Positions 2,910 through 30,750 of a DNA stretch of 32,649 nucleotides are shown piece by piece. The notes under the pieces are model-generated. The model saw only the letters and a program-made list of their open reading frames with translations, did no database searches and was not told where the DNA came from. The stretch covers positions 972,722-1,005,370 of the forward strand of contig NZ_KB235941.1 in assembly GCF_000332315.1 (NCBI RefSeq), in the 5' to 3' direction. A program made the translations under genes and the position numbers. How positions within the stretch are numbered: the stretch's first letter is position 1; the number at the start of each line of letters is the position of its first letter. This DNA is from Prochlorothrix hollandica PCC 9006 = CALU 1027. GTDB taxonomy: Bacteria > Cyanobacteriota > Cyanobacteriia > Prochlorotrichales > Prochlorotrichaceae.

Positions 2910-4502
2910 TGCCAGGGATGGCAGTGTCCCGCATCGGGTTCCTGTGACGGGGGAAACGGCAGGGGCAGGAAGGGACTGAACAGGACGGGAGCCGGTGTCT
3001 AGGGGCAGTTCCCGCACCATGATCACCACCTCGTCGGCATCCCCACAGGGCACTATGCGCACTTCCTTCCGCAATACCTGCCCCTCCACCTCTAGGAACT
3101 GCTCATAGATTTGGAGGGTTTGGCTGTCTAGGGCTAGGGCTGCGTAGTGGAGATATTGCTGGGCAATGGGGGGGGAGAAAACATCAAACACGGTGTTGGC
3201 TTCCAGGGGAGCCTTGGGGGGCAAGATCATGCCCCGATCGCAGTCATTGAGAAAGTCTAAATAGCGCCCGTCTCGGTGTATGTGAATCACCAGGTCAGGA
3301 CAAGCCCACAAAATAGCCTCAAGCTGATGCTGCTGTTGTTGGAGCCGCTGTTGACTGAGGTCTAAATCCTTCTGCTGTTGGGTCACTTGGCGTTGCAGGA
3401 AGTTATTGAGTTGCGCTTGATACTGATACAACTCCGCCTGTTGAATAGCGATGGTGAGATGGATGGCAAGTTCCTGGAGTAGGTTAATTTCCAGGGGTTC
3501 CCAGGAGCGACTGCCCTCGCATTGATGCACCATCAGCAACCCCCAGGGATAGCGCTGGGGATTTTTCTGATGATCCAAGAGGGAGCAGGTCAAGGGGAAG
3601 CTGGTGGGGTTGAGGGTTGAGTCTGGCCGATCGCCCCCGGAGCAATCTACCCAAATGGGCACCACATGGAGGGACTTCACCTGCCACTGGGCCAGGATTT
3701 CCAGGGGATAGGTGGCAAAAAAGCTTTGATTCTGCCAGTGGGCAGTGGTATTGTGGGTCTCGGTTTCCCAAATATCTTGGTGAAGCTGCTGGAAAATGGC
3801 ATCGAGGGACGGGTCTGGGACTGCAACCCAGGCATCTGGCCCTAGGGTTTGACCGAGGCTTTGGGTCCATGCCTCCTGCACCGATTCCGCCACCACTGTA
3901 CTGCTGCCATCGGTGGCAAACTGCAAGACTAGGACCCGATCGGCCTTCAAACAGTGGCCCAGGGCTTGGACGGTGGTGTCTAAAATATTCGAGAGTTCCA
4001 GGGATTGGAGAATCCGCAGCGCCAGGTCTTTAGTCAGTTGTTGTTGGTTTTGTTGCTGTTGCAGCGATCGCCGCATCCCAGCCTCCTCCAACACCTTTTT
4101 GAGGGTTCGTTGGAGGAGATCCGGTGTCACCTGATCCTTCACCAGATAGTCTTGTATTCCCGCTTGAATGGCTTCCACGGCCATGGCCTGATCCCGATGC
4201 TTGGTCATCATGACGGTGGGGGGCATGGTGTACCCTAGACTGTCTTTGAGCAGGGCAAAGAGGTCGATGCCATCGTAGTCTGGCAGGAAATAGTCTAATA
4301 AAATGACATCCGGCTGGCATTGTTCACAAAAAGATAGGGCTTCCTCCCCTGTTTCTGCCTCTAAGATGGTATAGCGATCGCTCTGGGACTGCAGATAGCG
4401 GTGACAAACTTGGCGATCGGCTAAGGAGTCATCCACCAATAGAATAATGTAGGGAACAGCCATAGATCTGGGGATATTAAAAGATTTTAGTAATTCATTC
4501 AA
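2868..4502 (-). CDS. Response regulator with REC, GAF and PAS domains
   Basis: A protein of 544 residues. An N-terminal receiver domain (about 17-140) has the acidic pair Asp24-Asp25, the phosphoacceptor Asp70 in VILLDYFLP, the MMTKHRD segment and the conserved Lys in YLVKDQ. A Gln-rich helical linker follows, then a GAF domain (about 165-365; LDTTVQALGHCLKADRVLVLQF, WGLLMVHQC), a second Gln-rich coiled coil, and a PAS domain (about 395-505; ACPDLVIHIHRDGRYLDFL, VVIMVREL). There is no kinase, DNA-binding, GGDEF or cyclase output, so it probably signals by protein contact. An internal ATG at 4463 would place the phosphoacceptor at residue 57, the usual number; neither start has a clear ribosome binding site. 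The C-terminus overlaps pfkA by 42 bases. The PAS domain resembles that of the cyclase at 26946. Confidence 0.85.
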   Translation of the reverse strand: MNELLKSFNIPRSMAVPYIILLVDDSLADRQVCHRYLQSQSDRYTILEAETGEEALSFCEQCQPDVILLDYFLPDYDGIDLFALLKDSLGYTMPPTVMMTKHRDQAMAVEAIQAGIQDYLVKDQVTPDLLQRTLKKVLEEAGMRRSLQQQQNQQQLTKDLALRILQSLELSNILDTTVQALGHCLKADRVLVLQFATDGSSTVVAESVQEAWTQSLGQTLGPDAWVAVPDPSLDAIFQQLHQDIWETETHNTTAHWQNQSFFATYPLEILAQWQVKSLHVVPIWVDCSGGDRPDSTLNPTSFPLTCSLLDHQKNPQRYPWGLLMVHQCEGSRSWEPLEINLLQELAIHLTIAIQQAELYQYQAQLNNFLQRQVTQQQKDLDLSQQRLQQQQHQLEAILWACPDLVIHIHRDGRYLDFLNDCDRGMILPPKAPLEANTVFDVFSPPIAQQYLHYAALALDSQTLQIYEQFLEVEGQVLRKEVRIVPCGDADEVVIMVRELPLDTGSRPVQSLPAPAVSPVTGTRCGTLPSLALTHVNANGLGHLD

Positions 4503-4675
4503 GTAACGATTCAGGGTTCAACGGGGGAATGTGGGTTTCAGGCTCTGAAAGTCTAGGATCGTCGCACTTCGGATCATTTTAGCCCTCGATCGGAGGGCTG
4601 AAACGTACTAACTTCGTACCTCCCCGAACGGTTACTTCATTCAAAGCGGATATCTCTATAAAGTTACAACAAAGT

Positions 4676-4760
4676 TACAGCAATCCTAAGTCAGTTGTCA
4701 GGATCTCGATGGTTTAAACCCTCCGGGCGCACACCACATGACCCGTTTTGGACTGCTGTA
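4676..4760 (-). mobile_element. MITE-like element, copy C (inverted)
   Basis: Read on the minus strand, this 85-base segment starts TACAGCAGTCC and ends GGATTGCTGTA. In between it carries the GGGTC-TGTGGTGTGCGCCC block, the CCATCGAGATCC block and the ACAACTGACTTAGG block of copy B. TA dinucleotides flank both ends. Related AT-rich sequence (CTATAAAGTT) occurs on both sides, which may reflect a duplicated target. Confidence 0.75.
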
Positions 4761-4826
4761 TCTATAAAGTTAAGGTTGAAACAGCTTTTAAATGGGTTGA
4801 TTTCATCGCTGTCTACTGATGTAGAT

Positions 4827-4874
4827 GGGGCGCATTGAGAGGGGCGCATTGAGAGGGGCGCATTGAGAGGGGCA
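4827..4874. repeat. 14-bp tandem repeat, three full copies
   Basis: Perfect head-to-tail copies of GGGGCGCATTGAGA at 4827-4840, 4841-4854 and 4855-4868, followed by a partial fourth (GGGGCA). Confidence 0.95.
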
Positions 4875-5295
4875 CCTTAAATCATTCCCAGGGTTGTTCC
4901 AGTGCCAACGCGGGAATCAAGGTTGTCGGGGGCGGCAGCGCAACTTTACCCCAGTCATCAAGGCACCCAATCTGGGGAGGGAGACCAATGAATGGATCCT
5001 CTGTCCCGTTTTTCAAGGGGTGAATTTTCAAGGGGTGAATCGGAGTCTGCGATCGCACGATCCGACCCACCCCTAGCCCCAACCTGGAGGGGAATACGAG
5101 CCGATATTCTCCCTGGCGGGAGGTGATGCCCTGAGCTTGCTGAAGGGGGGGAGGGGTCGGAAAACTGCCTAGGGTCCTCAAGACTCCGTGGCTGTTCTGG
5201 GTCGGGTCTAGCAGCCCATGGTGGATGCCCTAGCCCGATCGAGCGGATATCCCCCCTTGGTTCATAATTATTAGGTATTAACTGCGGATTTTGCT

Positions 5296-6069
5296 ATGGA
5301 TGTTTGGCTAAACCCCTGGACGATCGCCCTGATCCTCAATACCGGTTTAATTGCCTTTGCCCTTGTTGCCCCTAAAAAGCTGCTGACCCCGGCGGGGTAT
5401 GGCCATGCTTGGGCCTTGGGGGTGTTGGTGTGGGGAACCTTAGGCTGGCAGGGCTATGGGGTGGTGATGTTTTACTTTTTGGTGGGATCCGGGGTGACCC
5501 GCATTGGCATGGCGGAAAAAGAAGCCGCTGGTATTGCGGAAGGGCGATCGGGGATGCGCGGCCCAGAGAATGTCTGGGGTTCAGCCTTGACGGGCACCCT
5601 CTGCGGCTTGGGCATCTTGGCCCTGTCCTATGGCCAACCCGATGCCCAACCCGATACCTCCTCTCCGTGGATTCCCCTGTTGGCCCTGGGCTATGTGGCG
5701 AGTTTCGCCACCAAGCTTTCGGATACCACCGCTAGCGAAGTGGGGAAAGCCTATGGTCGCCGCACCTTTTTGATCACCACCCTGCGCCCTGTTCCCCGGG
5801 GCACCGAGGGAGCCGTGAGCCTGGAGGGAACCCTGGCGGGGCTGGGGGCTTCTGTGGTGTTGGCGTTGGTGGGCTGGGGGGTGGGTTTGGTGGGGCTGGG
5901 GGGGGTGCTGATCTGTGTCCTTGCTGCCTTTGTGGCCACTACCGTGGAAAGCCTGATCGGGGCCACGCTGCAAAGCCAATGGCGCTGGCTGACCAATGAA
6001 GTGGTTAATTTAATCAACACCACGGTGGGGGCACTGGTGGCGATCGCCCTGGGGGTAGCGGTTCTTTAG
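5296..6069 (+). CDS. DUF92/TIGR00297 membrane protein, VTE6-like phytyl-phosphate kinase
   Basis: A 257-residue polytopic membrane protein (about six helices). Family hallmarks are KKLLTPAGYGHAWALG near residue 28, a FYFLVGSGVTRIG segment, and the signature TKLSDTTASEVGKAYGRRT followed by LITTLRPVPRGTEGAVSLEG. Members of this family from plants and cyanobacteria (VTE6) phosphorylate phytyl phosphate to phytyl diphosphate, salvaging phytol from chlorophyll turnover for tocopherol and phylloquinone synthesis. The enzyme assignment is by family; the sequence itself shows only the family. The gene stands alone, with repeats on both sides. Confidence 0.85.
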   Translation: MDVWLNPWTIALILNTGLIAFALVAPKKLLTPAGYGHAWALGVLVWGTLGWQGYGVVMFYFLVGSGVTRIGMAEKEAAGIAEGRSGMRGPENVWGSALTGTLCGLGILALSYGQPDAQPDTSSPWIPLLALGYVASFATKLSDTTASEVGKAYGRRTFLITTLRPVPRGTEGAVSLEGTLAGLGASVVLALVGWGVGLVGLGGVLICVLAAFVATTVESLIGATLQSQWRWLTNEVVNLINTTVGALVAIALGVAVL

Positions 6070-6080
6070 GCCATGTCTAA

Positions 6081-6094
6081 CCGCAATGCCTAAC
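6081..6094 (+). repeat. Left flanking direct repeat of the 129-bp array
   Basis: CCGCAATGCCTAAC at this position recurs with one mismatch as CCGCGATGCCTAAC at 6536-6549, on the other side of the array. The pair looks like a duplicated target site or a recombination footprint. The right copy contains the stop codon of the gene at 6545-8347. Confidence 0.7.
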
Positions 6095-6103
6095 TGAAGA
6101 ATT

Positions 6104-6535
6104 GCACTCGACAATCCCAATTTATATCCCCCTGGGAGCGCCGACTTGTAGTCGGCTCCGGGTCGAGTGCAACTCGACAATCCCAGGCTTGGGAGCGTCG
6201 GCTTTGGGTCGAGTACAACTCGACAATCCCAGCAACTCGACAATCCCAGCAACTCGACAATCCCAATTTATATCCTCCTGGGAGCGCCGACTTGTAGTCG
6301 GCTCCGGGTCGAGTGCAACTCGACAATCCCAGGCGTGGGAGCGTCGGCTTCGGGTCGAGTACAACTCGACAATCCCAGCAACTCGACAATCCCAATTTAT
6401 ATCCTCCTGGGAGCGCCGACTTGTAGTCGGCTCCGGGTCGAGTGCAACTCGACAATCCCAGGCGTGGGAGCGTCGGCTTTGGGTCGAGTACAACTCGACA
6501 ATCCCAGCAACTCGACAATCCCAGCAACTCGACAA
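6104..6535. repeat. 129-bp tandem repeat array with 17-bp sub-repeats
   Basis: Three long units, anchored by TTTATATCC at 6121, 6267 and 6396 (spacings 146 and 129 bases; the difference is one extra 17-base sub-repeat CAACTCGACAATCCCAG). Each unit contains a perfect hairpin GCCGACTTGTAGTCGGC (7-bp stem) and a GGGTCGAGT block complementary to the ACTCGAC of the sub-repeat. Because 129 is divisible by three, frames stay open on both strands; these are not genes. Confidence 0.95.
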
Positions 6536-6544
6536 CCGCGATGC

Positions 6545-8347
6545 CTAACCGCGATCGCTCAGGCGCTGCCAATAACGTTGACTGGGGCGATCGTTGGGGC
6601 ATTGGGCCAAACAGTCCCCAAAGGCCGATCGGGCGATGGCCCATTGCTGTTGTTCATAGGCTTGTACCCCTGTTTCAAAGCGATCGCACCAGGCTTGCCG
6701 CTCTGGCGACAACGTTCCTCCATAGCCCAGTAATTCATACACCGGTTCCGGTTCACGGCCACCGGGCAACCACAGGCGATCGACACAGCGGGCGGCGATG
6801 GTGGTTCCCGCTTGCTGCCGCACTGCTGCCGTGATCAGGATCTGGGTGCCATACAACCCATTGGACTCTGCTAAAACCTGGGCCTGTTGCACCGGCAACC
6901 CCACCGGACGGCGGCGCAGGACTCCGGCCACCCACTGTTCCCCCCAGACCCAGGATCCTGCTGCCAATCCCAGGGCTAGGCAGGGGCGGTGCCCGGAATC
7001 AACGGCATCCGGGGACAAACTCCGGGCTTGATCTTGGGTCACCCCTAGGGCGAGAGACTGCTCCAAGGCTAGCCAACAGGCGCGGGTTGCGGGAGAGAGA
7101 TCCGGATCAACCCCGGTTTCCCAGGTCGTGACGAGGGTATGGGCTGCTAGGGATTGGCCCTGGCCCTGGGTGGACTCTAAACTGGATTGCAGGCGATCGC
7201 ACCATAGATCAAGCCATAGATCAAGCCATAGATTAAGCTCTAGATTAAGCCGCGAATTAAGCCCCGAATTAAGCCATTGACGATTAGTTTCTAAGTCTAG
7301 TGACTTAACCTCCTCTCCAGGATTCTTAACCCCATCGCAGTCTTGAGCATTAGCTTGAGTATTAGCTTGAGTATTAGCTTGAGCATTAGCTTGAGTATTT
7401 CCGTGAACCTTAGAAACCTCAATCACCGCCACCACGCCCTCCCCCAGGCCAGAGGAATCGAGAGAGGTGGGGTGCAAAGGCCGCTGCCCCTGGTGTCGCC
7501 GCTGCCACTGTTGATTATTCCTGGCATCCTGGAGCCGCTGCACCGAGTCCCAGAGATAGATTTCTAGTTTGATGCCCCAAATCCAGGCCAGTAGCCAGCT
7601 TCCTATCCCTAGAATTGCGAAAATCGTCCATAACCGCAGCGGGGGGGCTTGGAGTTGCCCGATGGCTTCCTGGCGCTGGTGCTGGAGTTGGCTCTGGAGT
7701 TGGCCTAGGGTTTGGCGCAGATCCGCCCGATCGCGATCCAGTTCCCGGTGTAGCAGGGCCAGTTCTGGCGGTGAGGCGGTGCCCAGGGCTTGGAGCAAAA
7801 CCAGGCTGCGATCGTGGAGTCGCCCATAGTCCCGGTTCAGGATTTGCAGTTGGCTGGCCATCCCCAGGCTGCCATCGGGGGCGGTGGATCTCCCCTCAGC
7901 ATCAGAGTAGGACTGAACTAGGGCCAAGGCTCCCCCCAGTAACTGCTGCACCTGTTCCTGTTGCACCATCAAAGGCTGTAGATCCGTTGGCTCCAGAACC
8001 GGTGGGGGCACTGGAGCCGGACTGGGAGGGGGGGACTGCTGGGGGGCCAATTTTTGCACCTTCGGCGAAGACGGGGTATTCTGCACCCTAGCCCGTGCCA
8101 ACGCTTTGGCCTCAGTCACCTGCTGTCCATGCAACCGCTCCAGGCGAGCTACGGTTACTTCCTGCTCCAAAAGTCCCTGATCCAGGGCCGTCACCACCAC
8201 CGTCAGTTGGAGGAGGGGTTCCCCCAAATCCTGGAGCGCTGCTTGGGAACGGTTGAGGGATTGGTGACTGAGGGCTAGGGTGGTTCCCAGTAGGCTGAGA
8301 AGGGTGCCCGCCAAGGTCAGAACTTGCCGCCGAAAGGAGAAAGCCAT
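6545..8347 (-). CDS. Membrane protein with degenerate class III cyclase-like C-terminal domain
   Basis: A protein of 600 residues. A membrane helix (about 8-27) is followed by an extracytoplasmic helical and Pro-rich region, a second membrane helix (about 238-260), a low-complexity linker with NTQANAQ repeats and Leu/Trp-rich repeats, and a C-terminal domain. That domain (about 455-560) resembles the second half of a class III nucleotide cyclase: CLALGLAAGSWVWGEQ in the position of the IGI.TG..V.G segment, then PVQQAQVLAESNGLYGTQIL in the position of G..VN.A.R.E....YGTQIL, then VDRLWLPGGREPEPVYELLG. A final Y.QQQWAIARSAFGDCL...P.DRPSQRYWQR helix pair is common at the ends of cyanobacterial cyclases. 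The metal-binding F.DI.GFT and GD.Y motifs are absent, so it cannot be catalytic. This looks like a pseudo-cyclase receptor or a decaying gene; the assignment is inference from motif spacing. Confidence 0.6.
   Translation of the reverse strand: MAFSFRRQVLTLAGTLLSLLGTTLALSHQSLNRSQAALQDLGEPLLQLTVVVTALDQGLLEQEVTVARLERLHGQQVTEAKALARARVQNTPSSPKVQKLAPQQSPPPSPAPVPPPVLEPTDLQPLMVQQEQVQQLLGGALALVQSYSDAEGRSTAPDGSLGMASQLQILNRDYGRLHDRSLVLLQALGTASPPELALLHRELDRDRADLRQTLGQLQSQLQHQRQEAIGQLQAPPLRLWTIFAILGIGSWLLAWIWGIKLEIYLWDSVQRLQDARNNQQWQRRHQGQRPLHPTSLDSSGLGEGVVAVIEVSKVHGNTQANAQANTQANTQANAQDCDGVKNPGEEVKSLDLETNRQWLNSGLNSRLNLELNLWLDLWLDLWCDRLQSSLESTQGQGQSLAAHTLVTTWETGVDPDLSPATRACWLALEQSLALGVTQDQARSLSPDAVDSGHRPCLALGLAAGSWVWGEQWVAGVLRRRPVGLPVQQAQVLAESNGLYGTQILITAAVRQQAGTTIAARCVDRLWLPGGREPEPVYELLGYGGTLSPERQAWCDRFETGVQAYEQQQWAIARSAFGDCLAQCPNDRPSQRYWQRLSDRG
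7195..7400. repeat. Short in-gene tandem repeats in the linker of the cyclase-like protein
   Basis: Two runs of short repeats: CATAGATCAAGC-type units of about 15 bases (7195-7275) and AGCTTGAGTATT-type units of 12 bases (about 7346-7400). Both are in frame and encode the Leu/Trp/Asn-rich and NTQANAQ-rich parts of the linker. Confidence 0.8.
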
Positions 8348-8669: not shown

Positions 8670-10007
8670 ATGGACCTCTGGTCTTCAGGACTGCCCTCCT
8701 GTCTGGGGGACGATCGCCGAGTTCGGGGTCGATCGCCGCTGCCCTTTGCCCAGGGACGACAGATCTGCACCGGCATTCTGGGGCTAAGCCTGGGGCTGGT
8801 TTTGGGGTTCACCCCCGCCAGGGCCGAGGATCTGTCCCCTGGGGTGCAGTCTGGTAGTGTGCAGTTTGGTAGTTTGCAGTCTGGTAATTTGCGATCGGCT
8901 AGCTTGCAACCGGCTAGTTTGCAGTCTGGTAATTTGCGATCGGCTAGCTTGCAACCGGCTAGCTTGCAACCGGCTAGTGTGCGATCGGGCACCTTAAACC
9001 CCGACGGTTTACTGGTCTCTGGGGGTGCAGCCAACCCGGACCCCGTGATCCAGCTTCAGGGCCACTGGCAATGGCAAAGTCCCGACGGTACCCGGATGAT
9101 CTTGACCTTTACGGAACCCGATCGCCTGGTGCTCCAGGTTCAAAGTCCCAACCCCGACGGGACGGGCAGCAATAGCCTGCAACTCCTGGAAGAACTGCGC
9201 TATACCATCCAGACAGACGCTGATCCCATGGCCTTGGACTTGACCCTGGCCGATAACCAGCAGATTCAGACCATTTTTAAGCTGGAAACCCCCGATCGCC
9301 TGCTCCTGGAGCTATCCCAACTCAGCCCCGGTCAACCCCGCCCCACCGCCTTTGGGGATGCCACCTTAACCTTTGAACGCCTCGACACCCCGCCCCCCTT
9401 GCCCGACAGCCTGACCCTGGTGCCCTACGAAACCCGCCAGCAGCAACAACAGGAAGCCCAAGCCCAAGCCTATCTTCAAGCCCTCACCCAGGCCCAAACC
9501 GCCTATTACCAGGGCCAGGGCACTTTTGCCAGCCAGTGGGATGATTTTGTTGTGGGCCTAGACGCGGAAACCCCCGCTTATACCTATGGGGTGCTGGTGT
9601 TACCGGATTTAGGGGAAATACCCACCGCTGGTGCCCTGCCGCCCCACCAGGGAGTGCTGATCACGGCCCAAGCCCAAGGGGAGGGCATCCACAGTTATGG
9701 GGGCTTACTGGTGGCCGTGGAACCCGCACCGGGGGATCTCCAGTTTCTTTGGCAAGCCTGCGCCTCCCCCCAGCCCAGTCCCAAACTGCCCCCCCTCCCC
9801 AGGGTTGAGGTCACTGCTGCTCTCCCCGATCCCAGTCCTGAGGATCCTGGATCCCAGACCCCCTCATCCCTGATCCTGACCCCCAGATCCACGGCGGACC
9901 CCACCAGCCTCCAAGCCCTGGAACCTGCCGCCCCCCCCCCTCAGTTCCCAACCATGGTGATCCTAAGCTGTGCCCCTGGGTCCCTACCCTTGGAGTTCTC
10001 CCCCTAG
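8670..10007 (+). CDS. Secreted type IV pilin-like G/H family protein with pentapeptide-like repeats
   Basis: The frame is open from 8382, but the ATG at 8670 gives a sensible signal peptide: a basic n-region, the hydrophobic core GILGLSLGLVLG, and cleavage after TPARA near residue 52. The mature protein starts with about nine pentapeptide-like repeats (GNLRS, ASLQP, ASLQS). A beta-rich domain follows (LQGHWQWQSPDGTRMILTF, DRLVLQVQ, IQTIFKLETPDRLLLEL, RPTAFGDATLTFERL). Last is a pilin-like segment (ALTQAQTAYYQGQGTF, YTYGVLVLP, IHSYGGLLVAVEP) of the type annotated in cyanobacteria as type IV pilin-like G/H, and a Pro-rich tail. It lacks the prepilin peptidase motif and N-terminal pilin helix, so it is probably a secreted or periplasmic protein rather than a pilus subunit. 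Length from this start is 445 residues. Confidence 0.7.
   Translation: MDLWSSGLPSCLGDDRRVRGRSPLPFAQGRQICTGILGLSLGLVLGFTPARAEDLSPGVQSGSVQFGSLQSGNLRSASLQPASLQSGNLRSASLQPASLQPASVRSGTLNPDGLLVSGGAANPDPVIQLQGHWQWQSPDGTRMILTFTEPDRLVLQVQSPNPDGTGSNSLQLLEELRYTIQTDADPMALDLTLADNQQIQTIFKLETPDRLLLELSQLSPGQPRPTAFGDATLTFERLDTPPPLPDSLTLVPYETRQQQQQEAQAQAYLQALTQAQTAYYQGQGTFASQWDDFVVGLDAETPAYTYGVLVLPDLGEIPTAGALPPHQGVLITAQAQGEGIHSYGGLLVAVEPAPGDLQFLWQACASPQPSPKLPPLPRVEVTAALPDPSPEDPGSQTPSSLILTPRSTADPTSLQALEPAAPPPQFPTMVILSCAPGSLPLEFSP
8846..8990 (+). repeat. 15-bp tandem repeats encoding the pentapeptides
   Basis: Units of 15 bases such as TTGCAACCGGCTAGC and TTGCAGTCTGGTAAT are repeated about nine times in frame. 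The antisense strand is also open here and also reads as five-residue repeats (CKLAG, RKLPD). This follows from the 15-base period and does not indicate an antisense gene. Confidence 0.9.
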
Positions 10008-10113
10008 TCCCGGCCCTGGGTCCCTAAGCCGGTGCGGCCATGTGATATCGTCAAAAGGCTACCTCAACCGGCTGCGATCGCCCGCCGATCCCCTCCTACT
10101 CCCCCCCCATCCC

Positions 10114-10482
10114 ATGGCCCAAACCCACACCGTCCGTATTTATCACCGCCAATCCGATCGTCACTACACTGTTCAGGTGCCGGACGATCGCTATGTGCTC
10201 CACAGTGCCGAGAACCAGGGGGCAGATTTGCCGTTTTCCTGCCGCAATGGGGCGTGTACCGCCTGTGCTGTGCGGGTTACGTCGGGGGAAGTGTACCAAC
10301 CGGAGGCCATGGGTCTATCGCCGGATCTGCGGGCACAAGGCTATGCCCTGCTCTGTGTCAGCTATGCGCGATCGGACTTGGAGGTGGAAACCCAGGACGA
10401 AGATGAGGTCTATGAGTTGCAGTTTGGCCGGTATTTCGGCAAGGGCAAAATTGTCCGTGGCCTACCCCTAGACGAAGAGTAA
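10114..10482 (+). CDS. Plant-type 2Fe-2S ferredoxin with C-terminal extension (FdC-like)
   Basis: A 122-residue protein starting MAQTHTVRIYH. The cluster-binding cysteines are in SCRNGACTACAVR (C-x4-C-x2-C), with the fourth in YALLCVSY about 30 residues later. The chain continues past the usual ferredoxin end with DEVYELQFGRYFGKGKIVRG, a conserved extension like that of FdC-type ferredoxins, which differ from photosynthetic PetF in redox potential and partners (family knowledge; partner unknown here). The start was chosen because the fold begins there; the frame is open further upstream but encodes no conserved sequence. The convergent methyltransferase gene ends 25 bases downstream. Confidence 0.9.
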   Translation: MAQTHTVRIYHRQSDRHYTVQVPDDRYVLHSAENQGADLPFSCRNGACTACAVRVTSGEVYQPEAMGLSPDLRAQGYALLCVSYARSDLEVETQDEDEVYELQFGRYFGKGKIVRGLPLDEE

Positions 10483-10506
10483 CTTGGCGGTAAACCGCTA
10501 TCCATT

Positions 10507-11211
10507 TCAAAACAAGACCCCCCGCACCCAGAGGTGCCGATCGCCCAATAACACCACCTCCAGGGAAGATAGCCCCGCGTCCCGCAGTTGTTGTTGCACC
10601 TCCCCCACCGTAAACGCGGCGCAGAGGGAGTTGTAGAAGTCCCGTTGCAGAATGTCGGGGGCAGTGGGGGCGATCGCGGCCACAATGGCCTGGGCAGCGG
10701 CGGGGCTGGGGGGGCGGCGCAGATCCATGACGGATACAGCGACGGGGGTCGTGGTGTGGCCGCTGTGGCGCAAATGTAAGAGGCTAGACCAGAGACTGTG
10801 GGGCTGGGGCAGGTGGTGCAGCATATCCTTGGAGATCAGGGCCGAAAAGGCGGGTTGTGTGCGGAAATCGGCGGAGGGCCAGTGGGGCAGTTGGCCTTGG
10901 AGCAGGGTGACCCGATCGCCCAATGCGGCGGCGGTGAGGCGGGCTTGGGCCAGTTCCACCATGGGGGCGGAGGCATCGAGGGCGGTAACCTGGCATTCGG
11001 GCAGGCTACGGGCTAATTCCAGGGCGATATCCCCCGGCCCACAGCCCAGATCGAGGATATGGCGCAAATACTGGGGATAGCTGTGGATCAAGCTATCAAT
11101 GAAGCGGCGGTTGGAGTCGCGGAAGTCGGCTTGGGCGTAGGCGATGGCTTGGGGGCGATCGTCCATGATTTCGGGTTCTAGGATTCGGTCCATGGGTTCG
11201 GCACGGGGCAA
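10507..11211 (-). CDS. Class I SAM-dependent methyltransferase
   Basis: A 234-residue protein with a Rossmann methyltransferase core: motif I ILDLGCGPGDIALELA (about 52-67), the acidic motif II region VTALDASAPMVELAQ, then LISKDMLHHLPQPHSLW (motif IV/V), and a C-terminal LSSLEVVLLGDRHLWVRG. The substrate is not evident; the N-terminal MDRILEPEIMDD-type opening suggests a conserved cyanobacterial subfamily. A second ATG at 11193 begins at that conserved segment and may be the true start. It converges with the ferredoxin gene. Confidence 0.85.
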   Translation of the reverse strand: MPRAEPMDRILEPEIMDDRPQAIAYAQADFRDSNRRFIDSLIHSYPQYLRHILDLGCGPGDIALELARSLPECQVTALDASAPMVELAQARLTAAALGDRVTLLQGQLPHWPSADFRTQPAFSALISKDMLHHLPQPHSLWSSLLHLRHSGHTTTPVAVSVMDLRRPPSPAAAQAIVAAIAPTAPDILQRDFYNSLCAAFTVGEVQQQLRDAGLSSLEVVLLGDRHLWVRGVLF

Positions 11212-11216
11212 CGGGT

Positions 11217-11405
11217 TTACAGAGGTTGGTGGGTTTTGAGTCCATCGCGGCGGACGATGTAGGCGGGGATGCCGACGACGACGCAGCGATCGGGCACGTC
11301 CTTGGTCACTACAATGCCTTGACGGGTCACCAGATCCACCGCTGTTATGGTCATGTCATCCCTACCCCCCAAGTCCAGGGCAATGGCCATACCAACGTAG
11401 TTCAT
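11217..11405 (-). pseudogene. C-terminal fragment of a hexapeptide-repeat acyltransferase
   Basis: The 62-codon frame ends with GIVVTKDVPDRCVVVGIPAYIVRRDG. This matches the closing coil and tail of left-handed beta-helix acyltransferases (serine or sugar O-acetyltransferase type: VVTKDVP..VVVGIPAKIVR). The catalytic repeats that should precede it are missing; the frame begins only a few bases from the end of the restriction-modification island. It is best read as a remnant cut off by the island or by earlier deletion. Confidence 0.65.
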
Positions 11406-11408
11406 TCT

Positions 11409-12308
11409 CTAGTGTTCCAACACCCCCCCAGAAGACTCGATCTCTAGAATTTTTCGCCCAATCCATTCTGCGATTCCTGGGACAACGGCGTTGCCAATGA
11501 GTCGCCCTCGACGACCGTCCAACCGGGGGGAAACCCCATCAGCCTTTCCCACTCTGTCCACGTCAAGTTTCTCGCCACACAGTATTGGTCGGTCTGAATG
11601 ACCTCCTTGATGGCCTCCAGTTTGGGCACGTAGCGTGGGGCAGATGCTTCTTGCCATGGTATACCCGAAGCCTCCGCGACGTTGTACCACAAGCGGATTG
11701 TCTCCGAGAGTGATTTCACGAAAACGAGGTCGAGCTTGCGACCAGCTCTGTTTTCGCGACGGAGAATCCCCAGACAGTTGGCTGCCGTCAGCAAAGATTC
11801 GATAGGCACGCGGTGACTTAAAACTTGCGATAAGGAATACTCGGTCTCGGTGGTGGGGTAAGCCCGTATGGGCAGCATTACACGATAACCATCCCCCCAG
11901 ATACCCGACCTTTTCCAGCGCGTCGATTGCTGCCTCAAGAGCAATTCCTTGCTCTGCCGATAACAGGCCCGGCACATTTTCCATGACCAGCCATTCTGGC
12001 TGAACTTCTCCAGCAAGTTCCATAAACGTGTAGAAAAGTCCACTCCGTTTCCCTTGAAGCCCTTCCCGTTCTGTGTTTGCTGCGCTGAGGTCTTGACAGG
12101 GCCATCCTGCACACCAAAGTTTAGCTGGAGGAATAGCTGTTGCTCTGAGGGTTGTGATGTCCGCATGGAGAGGTACCTTTGGCCAGTGACGTTTAAGAAT
12201 TTCATGACAGAAGTCGTCAATCTCGCATTGGAAAACCACTTCCATTCCGGCCCGTTCAAAGCCGAGGTCAAAGCCTCCAATACCAGCAAAAAATGATGCT
12301 ACCTTCAC
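11409..12308 (-). CDS. C5 cytosine DNA methyltransferase of a type II R-M system
   Basis: A 299-residue enzyme with a GTG start that transfers a methyl group from SAM to cytosine C5. Motif I is VASFFAGIGGFDLGFE (3-18), the catalytic loop GWPCQDLS has nucleophile Cys71, ENVP is at 110-113, and HRDRVFLI at 153-160 holds the motif VIII arginine. The short target-recognition region contains CPTLRAQTGGHQGG, and motif X is IGNAVVP at 271-277. It faces away from the XRE/HNH gene pair, the PvuII-like arrangement. Oddity: in the +1 frame the bases around 11500-11580 read NLTWTEWERLMGFPPGWT, the sequence expected near motif IX of this family, while the annotated frame reads VDRVGKADGVSPRLDG there. Two compensating indels are possible. 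The enzyme may therefore be intact or altered. Confidence 0.88.
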   Translation of the reverse strand: MKVASFFAGIGGFDLGFERAGMEVVFQCEIDDFCHEILKRHWPKVPLHADITTLRATAIPPAKLWCAGWPCQDLSAANTEREGLQGKRSGLFYTFMELAGEVQPEWLVMENVPGLLSAEQGIALEAAIDALEKVGYLGGWLSCNAAHTGLPHHRDRVFLIASFKSPRAYRIFADGSQLSGDSPSRKQSWSQARPRFREITLGDNPLVVQRRGGFGYTMARSICPTLRAQTGGHQGGHSDRPILCGEKLDVDRVGKADGVSPRLDGRRGRLIGNAVVPGIAEWIGRKILEIESSGGVLEH

Positions 12309-22377: not shown

Positions 22378-22858
22378 TGTAGGGGCGAAGCATTTGCCGC
22401 AAAAACCTGTGGGATTGTGCAAAAAATGCGGGTGCAAATGCTTCGCCCATGCCCCATCCATGATTTGCCGTGAAAATCTTTGAAATTTGCGGGAAATGCG
22501 GGTGCAAATGCTTCGCCCATGCCCCATCCATGATTTGCCGTGAAAATCTTTGAAATTTGCGGGAAATGCGGGTGCAAATGCTTCGCCCGTGACCCATGGA
22601 CGATTTGCGGCGAAAATTTCTGGGGTTTGTGGGAAATGCCGGGGGCGCAACGCTGGGCGAAGCATTTGCGGCATAGTTTTTTGCATTTTTCAGGGAGATC
22701 ACGGCGCAAATGCTTCGCCCCTACCCGGTGGACGATTTGCGGCGAAAATTTCTGGGGTTTGTGGGAAATGCCGGGGGCGCAACGCTGGGCGAAGCATTTG
22801 CGGCATAGTTTTTTGCATTTTTCAGGGAGATCACGGCGCAAATGCTTCGCCCCTACCA
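22378..22858. repeat. Array of 70-bp and 132-bp tandem repeats with GGGCGAAGCATTTGC inverted ends
   Basis: Units of 70 bases start at 22428, 22498 and 22568 (GCGGGTGCAAATGC...), the first two nearly identical. They pass into two units of 132 bases (CGATTTGC at 22601 and 22733). The motif GCAAATGCTTCGCCC and its complement GGGCGAAGCATTTGC recur in both orientations, so the array can fold into several alternative hairpins. Frames stay open on both strands because 132 is a multiple of three; no gene is supported. Confidence 0.92.
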
Positions 22859-22874: not shown

Positions 22875-24221
22875 TCAGGGCATTTGGTTTTGGCAGATTT
22901 GCAGGTTTTCTTGGAAGGTTTGGGTGTTGGGGTGGGTGGGGCCGAGAACTTGGGTGGCAATCTCCACCGCACGCTCGTACAGGGGTAACGCCTCCTCGTA
23001 GCGGCCCATGGACTCGTACAATGCCGCCAAATTGTTCAAAGTGGAGGCGGTGTCGGGATGGCTTGCTCCCAATTCCTGCTCATAAATCGCCAACGATCGC
23101 TGATACAGGGGTAACGCCTCCTCGTAGCGGCCCATGGACTCGTACAAGACCGCCAAATTGTTCAAACTGGTGGCGGTGTCGGGATGGTTTGCCCCCAATT
23201 CCTGCTCCCGTATCGCCAACGATCGCTGATACAGGGGTAACGCCTCCTCGTAGCGGCCCATGGACTTGTACAAAAGCGCCAAATTGTTCAAACTGGTGGC
23301 GGTGTCGGGATGGTTTGCCCCCAATTCCTGCTCACAAATCGCCAAGGCTCGGCCATAGAGGGGTTCTGCTTCTGGGTAGCGGCCTAATAGTTCATAGCTG
23401 CGGGCGTAGCGGTTTAAAGCTGTGGCTAAACCGGTTCCAGAGTTTGCCGCTTCATGGAGCGCAACGGCATGGCCCGCAACCGTTAACGCCTGGTGTAACT
23501 CCTGGCGATAATCCTCAGCCTTTCCCTGCTGACAACGATCGACATAGGCACCCGCCAACGTTGTGTATAACCCCGCCAACAGAGGAGACTGGGGATCCTG
23601 GGTTTCCAGGGCGTGGATTTCCTGGAGCAGCGCCACCGGATCCGGACCGTCTGGGGTGGACTCAGCCGGGGCAGCAGGGGGGGAGAACTCCCTGGGCTGG
23701 GCCACCGTCGCAGTCGGCAGGGGCGTGGGGGCGGAAAACTCAAACACACCGCCCCGCCAACTCCAGAAATCCGGAGCCACACTCGCCAACAGCGTCGCCG
23801 TTTCCGGTCTCAGCCACAGCACCAACGGCACCGCAAACCCCCGCAACGCCTCCCGCGTCCACTGGGCCGAAAACGCAAAACGCTCCTGATCCGACGGGGC
23901 ATCCCCCAAACGCACCCCCAACAGCCCATCCGCCCCCAACACCGTCACCACCGCCGGTGGATTTAGCCCCTGGGGGTGCTGGGCCTGCCACCCCTCCAGG
24001 GTTTGGCGCAAACTCAAACTGTCCCGATCCAAGCGCACCTGATGGCACTGGGTTCCCCCCGCCCCCAACTCCGCCTCATAGGACTGGATCAGGCGATCGC
24101 GGTAGAACCCCTGATCACAGGTGGCCACCAACAGGTTCAGCTTGCCATAGCTGGCCCGCATCGCCACCATCAAGCGCCACAAATTGTAGTCGTTCGTCGC
24201 CGCGATCGTCTTGTCCGCCAT
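22875..24221 (-). CDS. TPR protein with STAND-like N-terminal region, second gene of an ATPase operon
   Basis: A protein of 448 residues. The N-terminal domain (about 1-170) reads NDYNLWRLMVAMRASYGKLNLLVATCD, TQCHQVRLDRDSLSLRQTL, AVVTVLGADGL, WTREALRGFAVPLVLWLRPE and VAPDFWSWRGGVFEF. Sequences of this pattern, ending in the PDFW.WR.GVFEF signature, occur in bacterial STAND-type and TPR proteins, but no Walker A motif is present, so it may be a degenerate NTPase or adaptor. A Pro-rich linker follows, then TPRs of the kinesin-light-chain type (about 270-440; LNNLAVLYESMGRYEEALPLY). Three 126-base TPR units (22984, 23110, 23236) are almost identical at DNA level. The start ATG overlaps the stop of the ATPase gene by one base (TAATG), indicating translational coupling. 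Confidence 0.82.
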   Translation of the reverse strand: MADKTIAATNDYNLWRLMVAMRASYGKLNLLVATCDQGFYRDRLIQSYEAELGAGGTQCHQVRLDRDSLSLRQTLEGWQAQHPQGLNPPAVVTVLGADGLLGVRLGDAPSDQERFAFSAQWTREALRGFAVPLVLWLRPETATLLASVAPDFWSWRGGVFEFSAPTPLPTATVAQPREFSPPAAPAESTPDGPDPVALLQEIHALETQDPQSPLLAGLYTTLAGAYVDRCQQGKAEDYRQELHQALTVAGHAVALHEAANSGTGLATALNRYARSYELLGRYPEAEPLYGRALAICEQELGANHPDTATSLNNLALLYKSMGRYEEALPLYQRSLAIREQELGANHPDTATSLNNLAVLYESMGRYEEALPLYQRSLAIYEQELGASHPDTASTLNNLAALYESMGRYEEALPLYERAVEIATQVLGPTHPNTQTFQENLQICQNQMP

Positions 24222-25510
24222 TAGCTAACCGCCTGTTGTCGTTTCAGCAAATCCAGCACAATGGGATGCACGTCATACCACAGCGCATCATTTTCATACT
24301 CCAACACCATCAACCCATGGAGCAACTTAACAAACCCTAAATCACTGCTATCCAAGGGTTGCCCCTCCTGGTAAACCGTCTGCAAAATTTCATATAAACT
24401 GGCCCCCATCTGGCGAGCAAAATCATTGCGAATATTCCGCACCGCCAGGGCCAAAACTTCCCCATCAATGCGGCCTGTGGCCTCCCCTGGGTCAATCTCC
24501 AAGCGCACCATGGCTTCCGTACAACACTCCCGCCCCAAACGCACCAACTCCCGCAACACCCCGCCACTTTTCAACACCATCTCCCGCGCAGTTTCCGGGT
24601 CAATCAGATCCCCAGGAATCCGCCGTTCCAGGATTCTCAAAAACAGATCGAGGGTTTTGGCAATGGGTTCCGCCTGGGGATCGTGGCGCTGCTCCCAGGG
24701 GAAAAACTTAGCCACCGCAAAGGTTCGGGGCCGCACGATCCCGGCGGAATTGAGGGCACCCATCACCTGGGGTTCTTGGATGGCGGACACGGGAATGGTG
24801 AAAACAATGCGAATAGCCGGAGAAAACAGGGATTTGACGTTTTTCCGGTAGATATCTTCCGCCAGGGGCACATCCAGCTTATCCAGATCATCAATGATCA
24901 CCACCACGGTTTTTTTCCTTTGGCTTTGGATAGTGGCCGCAAGGCGATCGATCTTGCTCACCAGTTCAGAAATCCGTTTCGCAAAGGTGGTTTCCAGCTC
25001 ATCCCGAAAAACTTTTTCCTGTTGCAGTTTCAGGGTGACAGCGCTCAGCAAGTTAGCCTGGAATTCGACCCCCGTTTTATGCTCTTGGCCCTCGGTTTGG
25101 GTCAATTGCTGATTCCACCCCAAAATAGTCTTAACAATATCGTCCGGTACATTGAGGCGGAGTTGGCTAGCGCTACTGATTAATTGCAACGCAATGGCAT
25201 ACAAAATATTGACATGGGTAATGGCGGACAATTCCAACAGATCCGCCACGGAAAAAAAGACCACATGGTGCTGGGATTTTAAGTCCACCGCCAACCGCTT
25301 CAACAGGGTCGATTTACCACAGCCCCGATGCCCCGTAAAGACAAATTTGCCGTCATCTTTCGAGGCTTGGATTTCCCGCTTCAGCCGCACCAACACATCC
25401 AGCCCATAGTCAATGCGGAATCGTTCGATATCCTCCGGCTCCACCAAGGGAGAGAGATCCAGATCCCGGTAGGCTTGTTGTAAGCGATCCATCGGTTGTA
25501 GCGGATCCAT
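24221..25510 (-). CDS. P-loop ATPase (AAA/STAND-like), first gene of the operon
   Basis: The protein has an AAA-type core: Walker A GHRGCGKST (residues 67-75 counted from the upstream ATG at 25531), HHVVFFSVADLLEL, a coiled segment (FRDELETTFAKRISELVSKIDRL-like), Walker B VVVIIDDLDKL (about 208-218), FTIPVSAI after it, and a helical C-terminus ending in a winged-helix-like ALWYDVHPIVLDLLK. The start was placed at the ATG at 25510, as AAGGAG stands ten bases upstream; this gives 429 residues. The pairing with a TPR protein by a one-base overlap suggests they act as a complex, ATPase as switch and TPR as partner-binding arm. No nuclease or other toxic domain is visible in either. Confidence 0.82.
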   Translation of the reverse strand: MDPLQPMDRLQQAYRDLDLSPLVEPEDIERFRIDYGLDVLVRLKREIQASKDDGKFVFTGHRGCGKSTLLKRLAVDLKSQHHVVFFSVADLLELSAITHVNILYAIALQLISSASQLRLNVPDDIVKTILGWNQQLTQTEGQEHKTGVEFQANLLSAVTLKLQQEKVFRDELETTFAKRISELVSKIDRLAATIQSQRKKTVVVIIDDLDKLDVPLAEDIYRKNVKSLFSPAIRIVFTIPVSAIQEPQVMGALNSAGIVRPRTFAVAKFFPWEQRHDPQAEPIAKTLDLFLRILERRIPGDLIDPETAREMVLKSGGVLRELVRLGRECCTEAMVRLEIDPGEATGRIDGEVLALAVRNIRNDFARQMGASLYEILQTVYQEGQPLDSSDLGFVKLLHGLMVLEYENDALWYDVHPIVLDLLKRQQAVS

Positions 25511-25520
25511 GGCGATCGCA

Positions 25521-25526
25521 CTCCTT
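25521..25526 (-). promoter_or_regulatory. Ribosome binding site of the ATPase gene
   Basis: AAGGAG on the minus strand, ten bases before the ATG at 25510. It lies inside the alternative longer reading from 25531, which argues against that start. Confidence 0.75.
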
Positions 25527-25539
25527 AACATGGGCAGGG

Positions 25540-29451: not shown

Positions 29452-30327
29452 TCAGGACCCTGCCATGCCCAACCAGGTCGGCAACCAAACCCCCAGACCT
29501 GTCCCCACCAGAGCCACACTGCCCATTAGCACCACCTGGTGGTTGTCCTCAAAGGCTTTGCGCTCCCCCCAATAGCCATTCAGGACTTTGCCCGCCCCCG
29601 TCACCAGCACCGCTGTGATCCATACCCAGAGGGGCACCGCCGCCCCATAGATCCAGGCCCAGGCCAGCAAATCCCCAAACTGTTGGCCCAACCAGCGCAA
29701 CGACACCACCCCCAAGGCTACCCCCAGGCCCAAGCCAAGGCTAGCTTTGAGACGGCGCTGAGCGTCCTGCCAACTGACCCAAACTACCGCCCCTCCCCAC
29801 AGGCTGAGGGTGACGAGACCCTGAAGGGCTAAGGTGGCGACAATGACAGATGGGGGCAGTCTATCCAGGGCCACTGCCCCCAGTAGCACCCCGGACCCGC
29901 TGCCCACCCCCAGGAGAATCAGGGCAATGGTGGATTGTTTCAGCCCTTGACCCAGGGTCATCTCCACCGCCATCAACGCCCCCATGGCCATGACGACACC
30001 GGATCCCCACAGGGGAACCCCCAAGGCGTGGGTGAGGGATCCTAGGCCGATCGCCGCCAGGGTTACAAAGCCAAAACAGAGGATCGATCGGATCCCAGTT
30101 CCGCCAATGGAGTCCCGTTCGCTGATGCTGGGCACTCCCATTAACGTTAAGACAAGACAAAGCAATAGATAAAGCTTAAAACCGTTGTAGAGATGGAGAG
30201 GCAAGGCTTTTAAGACCATGGGAATACCTTGCAGAATCCATCCCCCCAACAGGGCAAAAGCCAAGATTAAACCCAAAAACCACAACCAAGGAAGGTTCTG
30301 GATCGGTGAACCATAGGACTGCTTCAT
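29452..30327 (-). CDS. Multispanning membrane protein of unknown function
   Basis: From the ATG at 30327 the protein has 291 residues and about eight or nine hydrophobic helices (LPWLWFLGLILAFALLGGWI, LYLLLCLVLTLMG, ILCFGFVTLAAIGLGSL, SGVVMAMGALMAVEM, IALILLGVGSGSGVLLG, ALQGLVTLSLWGGAVVWV, LGLGLGVALGVVSL, VWITAVLVTGAG). I do not recognise a family. The frame is open to 30474 but the extra 49 residues are polar and partly encoded by 14-bp repeats, so the internal start is preferred. It might be an uncharacterised transporter or assembly factor; no conserved charged motif is visible. Confidence 0.65.
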   Translation of the reverse strand: MKQSYGSPIQNLPWLWFLGLILAFALLGGWILQGIPMVLKALPLHLYNGFKLYLLLCLVLTLMGVPSISERDSIGGTGIRSILCFGFVTLAAIGLGSLTHALGVPLWGSGVVMAMGALMAVEMTLGQGLKQSTIALILLGVGSGSGVLLGAVALDRLPPSVIVATLALQGLVTLSLWGGAVVWVSWQDAQRRLKASLGLGLGVALGVVSLRWLGQQFGDLLAWAWIYGAAVPLWVWITAVLVTGAGKVLNGYWGERKAFEDNHQVVLMGSVALVGTGLGVWLPTWLGMAGS

Positions 30328-30410
30328 AGTTGCTTCAAAGTAGTGAACCCTAGATCGCGGTGCTCTTCTGCCCAAGATCCATGGAACCCCAAACTTAGGG
30401 GTGCTTAGGG

Positions 30411-30452
30411 ACGCGATCGTAGAAACGCGATCGTAGAAACGCGATCGGCTAA
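30411..30452. repeat. 14-bp tandem repeat, three copies
   Basis: ACGCGATCGTAGAA at 30411-30424 and 30425-30438, then ACGCGATCGGCTAA. Each copy contains most of a HIP1 site. It lies 84 bases upstream of the membrane protein's start codon. Confidence 0.85.
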
Positions 30453-30750
30453 ACGGAACGCTACTGATGGCCAACGATCGCCACCGTCACCGTCCCTTTA
30501 AGCTGGGATTTTCTACGCTTCCAATCTCGCGATCGGCCTCGATCGAGGATTTCTTGGGCAGTAATAATGCTTTTGGTAATTTAATAAGTCAGTGTACCAT
30601 ACAAATTCAGCCAAGTCAGCTCAGTTAATGATGCAAAATTGCAATAATGGGATCCTAGGGCGATTGTGGCGATCGGATCCTATACCTGCGCAGTCCTGAG
30701 CCGCTGACGGTCTCAGGTGAACGCTACAGCCCCAGATTCCCCCACCCCGC
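30453..30750. other. Intergenic region upstream of the membrane protein gene, nothing identified
   Basis: About 300 bases of mixed composition, AT-rich around 30560-30650. It probably contains the promoter of the membrane protein. I see no ORF, RNA or repeat here. Confidence 0.5.

Follow-up and report, generated by a model that had tools for sequence, protein, structure and literature searches.

What do two coupled genes, one for a P-loop ATPase and one for a protein with kinesin-light-chain (KLC) TPRs, do in the cyanobacterium Prochlorothrix hollandica PCC 9006 (= CALU 1027)? The genes lie in a stretch of 32,649 nucleotides that was analysed as a whole and is referred to here as the window. 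The first-pass annotation, made from the letters of the window, took the pair for a sensor whose TPRs recognise a partner. Our analysis leads to a related answer, and we lean towards reading the pair as a split NLR-like (STAND-type) conflict sensor. Both open reading frames are on the minus strand (Table 1), which the first-pass annotation had not stated, and its one-base overlap is real, as the ATPase stop TAA and the start ATG of the TPR gene have one base in common (TAATG). The ATG at 25510 is possibly an alternative start of the ATPase, judged by its fit to the homologues. The upstream flank of the pair is crr6 (NdhI maturation factor), and downstream lies a convergent TIGR03960 radical SAM gene. 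Directly 3' of the TPR gene, the window contains intergenic tandem repeats (22424-22857; 70-bp and 132-bp units, 91-97% match) with spurious ORFs inside them. Further away (29452-30474), a 340-aa ORF without Pfam match sits between alanine racemase and pntB.

Table 1. Features of the gene pair and of one related locus; positions are those of the window unless a protein or another locus is named.
Feature	Location	Strand	Details	Basis
ATPase gene	24221..25531	minus	436 aa; start ATG 25531	ORF
Walker A	aa ~67-74 of ATPase		GHRGCGKST
Walker B	aa ~210-218 of ATPase		VVIIDDLD
VHP motif (MHD-like), within the winged-helix-like C-terminus	aa 421-424 of ATPase
Partner gene, candidate pseudo-ATPase-TPR	22875..24221	minus	448 aa	ORF; TPR_12 E 2.4e-83 (Pfam)
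N-domain, 'PDFWSW' type	23687..24221	minus	aa 1-178 (also delimited as aa 1-165, PDFWSWRGGVFEF)	A2 alignment
KLC-type TPR array	22978..23345	minus	126-bp (42-aa) units, 2.9 copies, 93% match	TRF
Stretch common to the array and two NB-ARC-TPR genes of the own genome	22959..23384	minus		blastn vs L196
ATPase-TIR (C-terminal TIR)	L115 9186-11279		TIR E 1.5e-33

The first protein, judged by its intact motifs, appears to be an active STAND/ORC-like P-loop ATPase. Its Walker A and Walker B motifs had been called intact, which the family corroborates, as each of them, like the C-terminal VHP, is present in 50 of 50 aligned close homologues; distant members contain NP or HP in place of VHP. By its position in the sequence, the VHP appears to resemble the MHD motif of NLRs. 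Pfam matches above gathering are weak and comprise ATPase_2, KAP, NACHT and NPHP3_N, with the nSTAND models below gathering and no match to NB-ARC among the Pfam families shown. The nearest curated model is the ATPase_Sll1717 family (NF047389; E 5.5e-9, aa 56-241), to which the protein does not belong, since its 35.7 bits fall short of the cut-off (75). By sequence, the PDB returned weak P-loop matches only. The AF2 model (pLDDT 88.8) consists of an AAA+/ORC-related core followed by a helical lid and a predicted winged-helix-like region at the C-terminus. Its VIA matches are ORC (Z 16.5), the archaeal ATPase_2 protein 2qen (15.7, nearly whole length), CED-4 (14.1, aa 27-434) and the plant NLR RPP1 (13.4, aa 32-436).

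The second protein joins an N-terminal domain to KLC-type 42-aa TPRs (TPR_12), as the first-pass annotation had described; the domain is present as claimed, and its degenerate ATPase nature had been overlooked. We refer to it as the N-domain, with WTRE and APDFWSWRGGVFEF as its conserved motifs. Among the 62 members scanned, Pfam gave no meaningful family match, and the domain stands outside every Pfam family. The AF2 model on alignment A2 (pLDDT 91.2) has an alternating helix-strand fold, with VIA Z scores of 11.9 for TnsC (167 residues, 4.9 A), 10.6 for Cdc6/Orc1 and 9.8 for the STAND protein Avs5, while Foldseek alone was borderline (E 1e-3). The N-domain is thus predicted to adopt an AAA+/STAND fold. 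The Walker A signature GK[ST] occurs in 0 of 62 rows of the alignment, and the acidic pair is missing at the would-be Walker B strand, so the N-domain appears to be a pseudo-ATPase. The conserved R156 of the N-domain was considered as an arginine finger, but this cannot be a feature of the whole family, as the D...W core is retained in distant members and the Arg is not.

The coupling of the two genes was surveyed across 390 genomes of the class, with presence cut-offs of E <= 1e-40 for the ATPase and E <= 1e-30 for the N-domain. The ATPase family was present in 108 genomes (54 of 160 genera), the N-domain family in 105, and both together in 98 (Fisher p 5e-71, which is overstated because related genomes were counted as independent). 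Unaffected by that assumption is the adjacency count, in which the ATPase stands directly upstream and on the same strand at 115 of 130 N-domain places, several of the exceptions being contig ends. At most loci of the named genomes, the two genes overlap or are separated by a few dozen bases at most. This close form of the module occurs in about a quarter of class genomes, and the wider N-domain family in 78 of 120 genera. Across 64 loci, a third gene recurs through clade synteny only (<=9 loci), and the neighbourhoods of close pairs, which are resident chromosomal genes, are conserved within clades with none fixed across families. The first-pass annotation had let its reading depend on co-occurrence and neighbours, and on both the reading comes through. 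As the genes co-occur and their neighbourhoods are not fixed, a self-contained two-gene module is favoured; on gene content and order, the ATPase and the N-domain protein are to be regarded as a strict, co-inherited module. No relatives of the pair were found in the phage records and IMG/VR collections searched.

The domains that accompany relatives of the pair point to conflict. In an Oscillatoriales MAG (L094), the N-domain-TPR protein ends in a CHAT protease (PF12770, E 4.6e-43) with the His and Cys motifs FACH and LCASETG, and the ATPase lies 0 bp upstream; this is the one CHAT among 80 close loci. A hydrophobic C-terminal helix occurs in 6 or 7 of the roughly 70 complete close homologues. 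Neither the window pair nor most of the 70 carries an effector domain. Distant relatives have fusions of the N-domain to nSTAND1, often with WD40 in addition, that adjoin the ATPase. The own genome encodes such a protein, of 2121 aa with N-domain and nSTAND1, beside an ATPase. A plasmid of Calothrix sp. NIES-4101 carries in a row the ATPase, an ATPase-TIR and a double-N-domain-nSTAND1 protein. On a Nostoc plasmid, a SAV_2336-type protein has the ATPase domain as its tail (A3 E 2e-45), beside MoxR and VMAP-C. It had been supposed that the output would be of a new type or lie elsewhere; the window indeed contains no effector, but a new type need not be invoked, because the close sibling in L094 bears CHAT on its TPR protein.

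The TPR array is the part of the pair that varies and seems to be exchanged. Its internal protein identity at period 42 is 90%. Two NB-ARC-TPR (NLR-like) genes elsewhere in the own genome have arrays to which the common stretch is 84-90% identical as a whole and up to 93.5% over 368 bp, and this identity ends at both flanks of the window array. The first of these genes matches Pfam NB-ARC (E 2.8e-7), and the second was assigned through its closely similar N-terminal sequence. The two genes are located at 3718-6564 and 9221-12241 of locus L196 (G000:C3), and more array fragments are found on the same contig, C3 (L197). In Nodosilinea-type relatives, the N-domains are 95-98% identical, and the TPR regions are 63-75% identical and differ in length. 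Here, in a bacterium, recognition repeats seem to pass from one receptor gene to another.

Within the array, adjacent 42-aa repeats of 26 related proteins differ mainly at positions 3, 6, 13, 16 and 35. In the usual TPR register, 6, 13 and 16 correspond to positions 2, 9 and 12, on the ligand-binding concave face. The pN/pS was held out, in that positions were picked on one taxon group and tested on the other, and at the hypervariable positions it was 1.42 (bootstrap 0.97-2.10) and 4.06 (2.74-13.3), against 0.32 and 0.22 elsewhere. A control set of 26 KLC-TPR ORFs that lack the N-domain, among them several NB-ARC or CHAT proteins, varied at the same positions (pN/pS 1.50 against 0.34). Since the controls show the same pattern, hypervariability is a general mark of TPR recognition arms in these bacteria, and its use as evidence specific to the pair is weakened; the exchange signal of the array is more specific. 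A 40-aa TPR class (8 arrays) also appears to vary at a few positions. In fungal NLRs, the TPRs are mostly of 42 aa with the same pattern of variation (PMC4986451).

Given that the relatives carry cell-death-type domains, the pair probably acts like an immune receptor whose parts are divided between two proteins. We infer the defence role from these relatives, not from a defence island. In such a receptor, the pseudo-ATPase would dock on the ATPase in the way known from other AAA+/STAND heteromers, and through this docking the TPR arm would sense for the whole pair. A ligand, probably foreign, on the diversified TPR surface might then free the ATPase for nucleotide-driven assembly, which would gather the outputs. 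In the siblings, a CHAT protease, a membrane tail or nSTAND1-WD40 would provide a built-in output, or a neighbouring TIR-ATPase would carry it. For the window pair, it may be recruited from elsewhere, for example as a CHAT or TIR protein, or the assembly itself may contain the invader. More tentatively, the pair could stand for a two-gene receptor class in which a STAND ATPase is ruled by a pseudo-ATPase sensor, with TPR cassettes that recombine with those of NB-ARC receptors in a pool like that of fungal NLRs. Of the sensor module first proposed, the ATPase switch, the TPR recognition arm, the coupling and the conflict-type relatives stand as observations, and the defence action as an inference. 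In the proposed check against profile collections, PADLOC, Pfam and NCBIfam gave neither of the proteins a defence family. PADLOC, which does not recognise the pair, had no specific match to either protein; its matches to VakA and PDC-S20 ATPases were rejected as weak and centred on the P-loop region. No description of the pair was found in the open-access literature searched.

Other readings draw on the same observations. TPRs are often binders of host proteins. The two genes might accordingly be a non-immune scaffold or signalling pair, in which the ATPase regulates a TPR adaptor for host partners in the manner of a kinesin-light-chain cargo adaptor, with roles in stress response or in envelope or photosynthetic assembly. 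A resident chromosomal gene with clade-conserved neighbours, members that mostly lack an effector and the abundance of KLC-TPR arrays in the class would all suit such a pair. What makes us think it rather unlikely is the patchy spread over 54 of 160 genera, together with the rapid turnover of the array, the pN/pS above 1 at binding positions, the array sequence common to NB-ARC receptors, and the CHAT, TIR and VMAP/vWA contexts of relatives. The module might instead be decaying or a decoy, with the effector lost from the window copy and the TPR array a by-product of repeat recombination. The pair does lack an effector, its array is short (a protein of 448 aa against a typical 500-700), and intergenic repeats lie nearby. 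Both frames are intact, however, the catalytic motifs are invariant and the coupling is retained; moreover, to be without an effector domain is the normal form, because the majority of the 70 complete close homologues likewise have none. We therefore give decay very little credence.

The folds themselves suggest a further alternative, namely a DNA-associated ATPase pair, an ORC/Cdc6/TnsC-like loader for replication, partition or target selection, in which the pseudo-ATPase would serve either as its counterparts do in ORC heteromers or as a receptor for nucleic acids. ORC, Cdc6 and TnsC are the top fold matches, the ATPase has a winged-helix-like C-terminus, and inactive STAND domains have been proposed as nucleic-acid receptors (Kaur et al.; PMC8195603). 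This ancestry is, however, common to STAND proteins, with ATPase_2, CED-4 and RPP1 matching over the whole length at Z 13-16. Transposase, integrase and replication neighbours are not recurrent at close pairs, and the TPR partner is variable, which leaves such a loader improbable.

The split NLR-like sensor, the reading that we prefer, can be set beside several known systems. The NB-ARC-TPR/AP-ATPase STAND proteins of cyanobacteria are alike in having a STAND-like ATPase, a winged helix, a putative MHD-like His and 42-aa KLC TPRs, with array DNA up to 93% identical in the own genome. The pair, by contrast, divides switch and sensor between two proteins, with a dead ATPase domain on the sensor and no repeats on the ATPase. 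The iSTAND and iSTAND2 components of MoxR-vWA ternary systems contain, like the N-domain, an inactive STAND-type domain of cyanobacteria, and iSTAND is the putative sensing component of these conflict systems (Kaur et al. 2020, 2021; PMC7159879, PMC8195603). One distant ATPase relative shares their VMAP/MoxR/vWA context. The partner in the pair is instead an apparently active STAND-like ATPase, and the pair is not a ternary member, because no MoxR, vWA or VMAP homologue occurs in the 117 other close or distant loci. With Avs/bNACHT, the pair has in common a STAND-fold ATPase, the principle of a C-terminal repeat sensor and the Avs5 fold match of the N-domain; it differs in being two genes with no N-terminal effector, and no Avs model matched in the PADLOC output. 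The TPR-CHAT proteases (Csx29 of Craspase, stand-alone CHAT-TPR) recall the sibling in L094, which joins TPR to CHAT. Here, the TPR lies behind a pseudo-ATPase coupled to an ATPase, and Pfam found no CHAT domain in the window protein. In the NLR-like receptors compared, switch and sensor are on one chain; in the pair they are split, with the dead ATPase on the sensor side. This offers a simple two-protein system for asking how pseudo-ATPases control STAND switches.

Related genes also occur in other layouts. N-domain proteins of 650-1100 aa with few or no C-terminal Pfam matches stand without an adjacent ATPase (L129-L134), as does a 1121-aa N-domain protein of the own genome (L128, 6977-10342). 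In two genomes (L013, 2913-4263; L015, 262-1348), the ATPase is followed by two small proteins and a separate KLC-TPR gene, in place of the N-domain protein. In one of the small proteins, a GDISINGDNIG-type motif recalls the N-terminal end of the NB-ARC-TPR proteins, and this layout is a possible alternative sensor arrangement. On a plasmid of Acidisarcina polymorpha (L119, 9199-11909), a distant ATPase relative overlaps a KLC-TPR gene near a CHAT gene, and the pairing may therefore extend, without a detectable N-domain, beyond cyanobacteria into Acidobacteriota.
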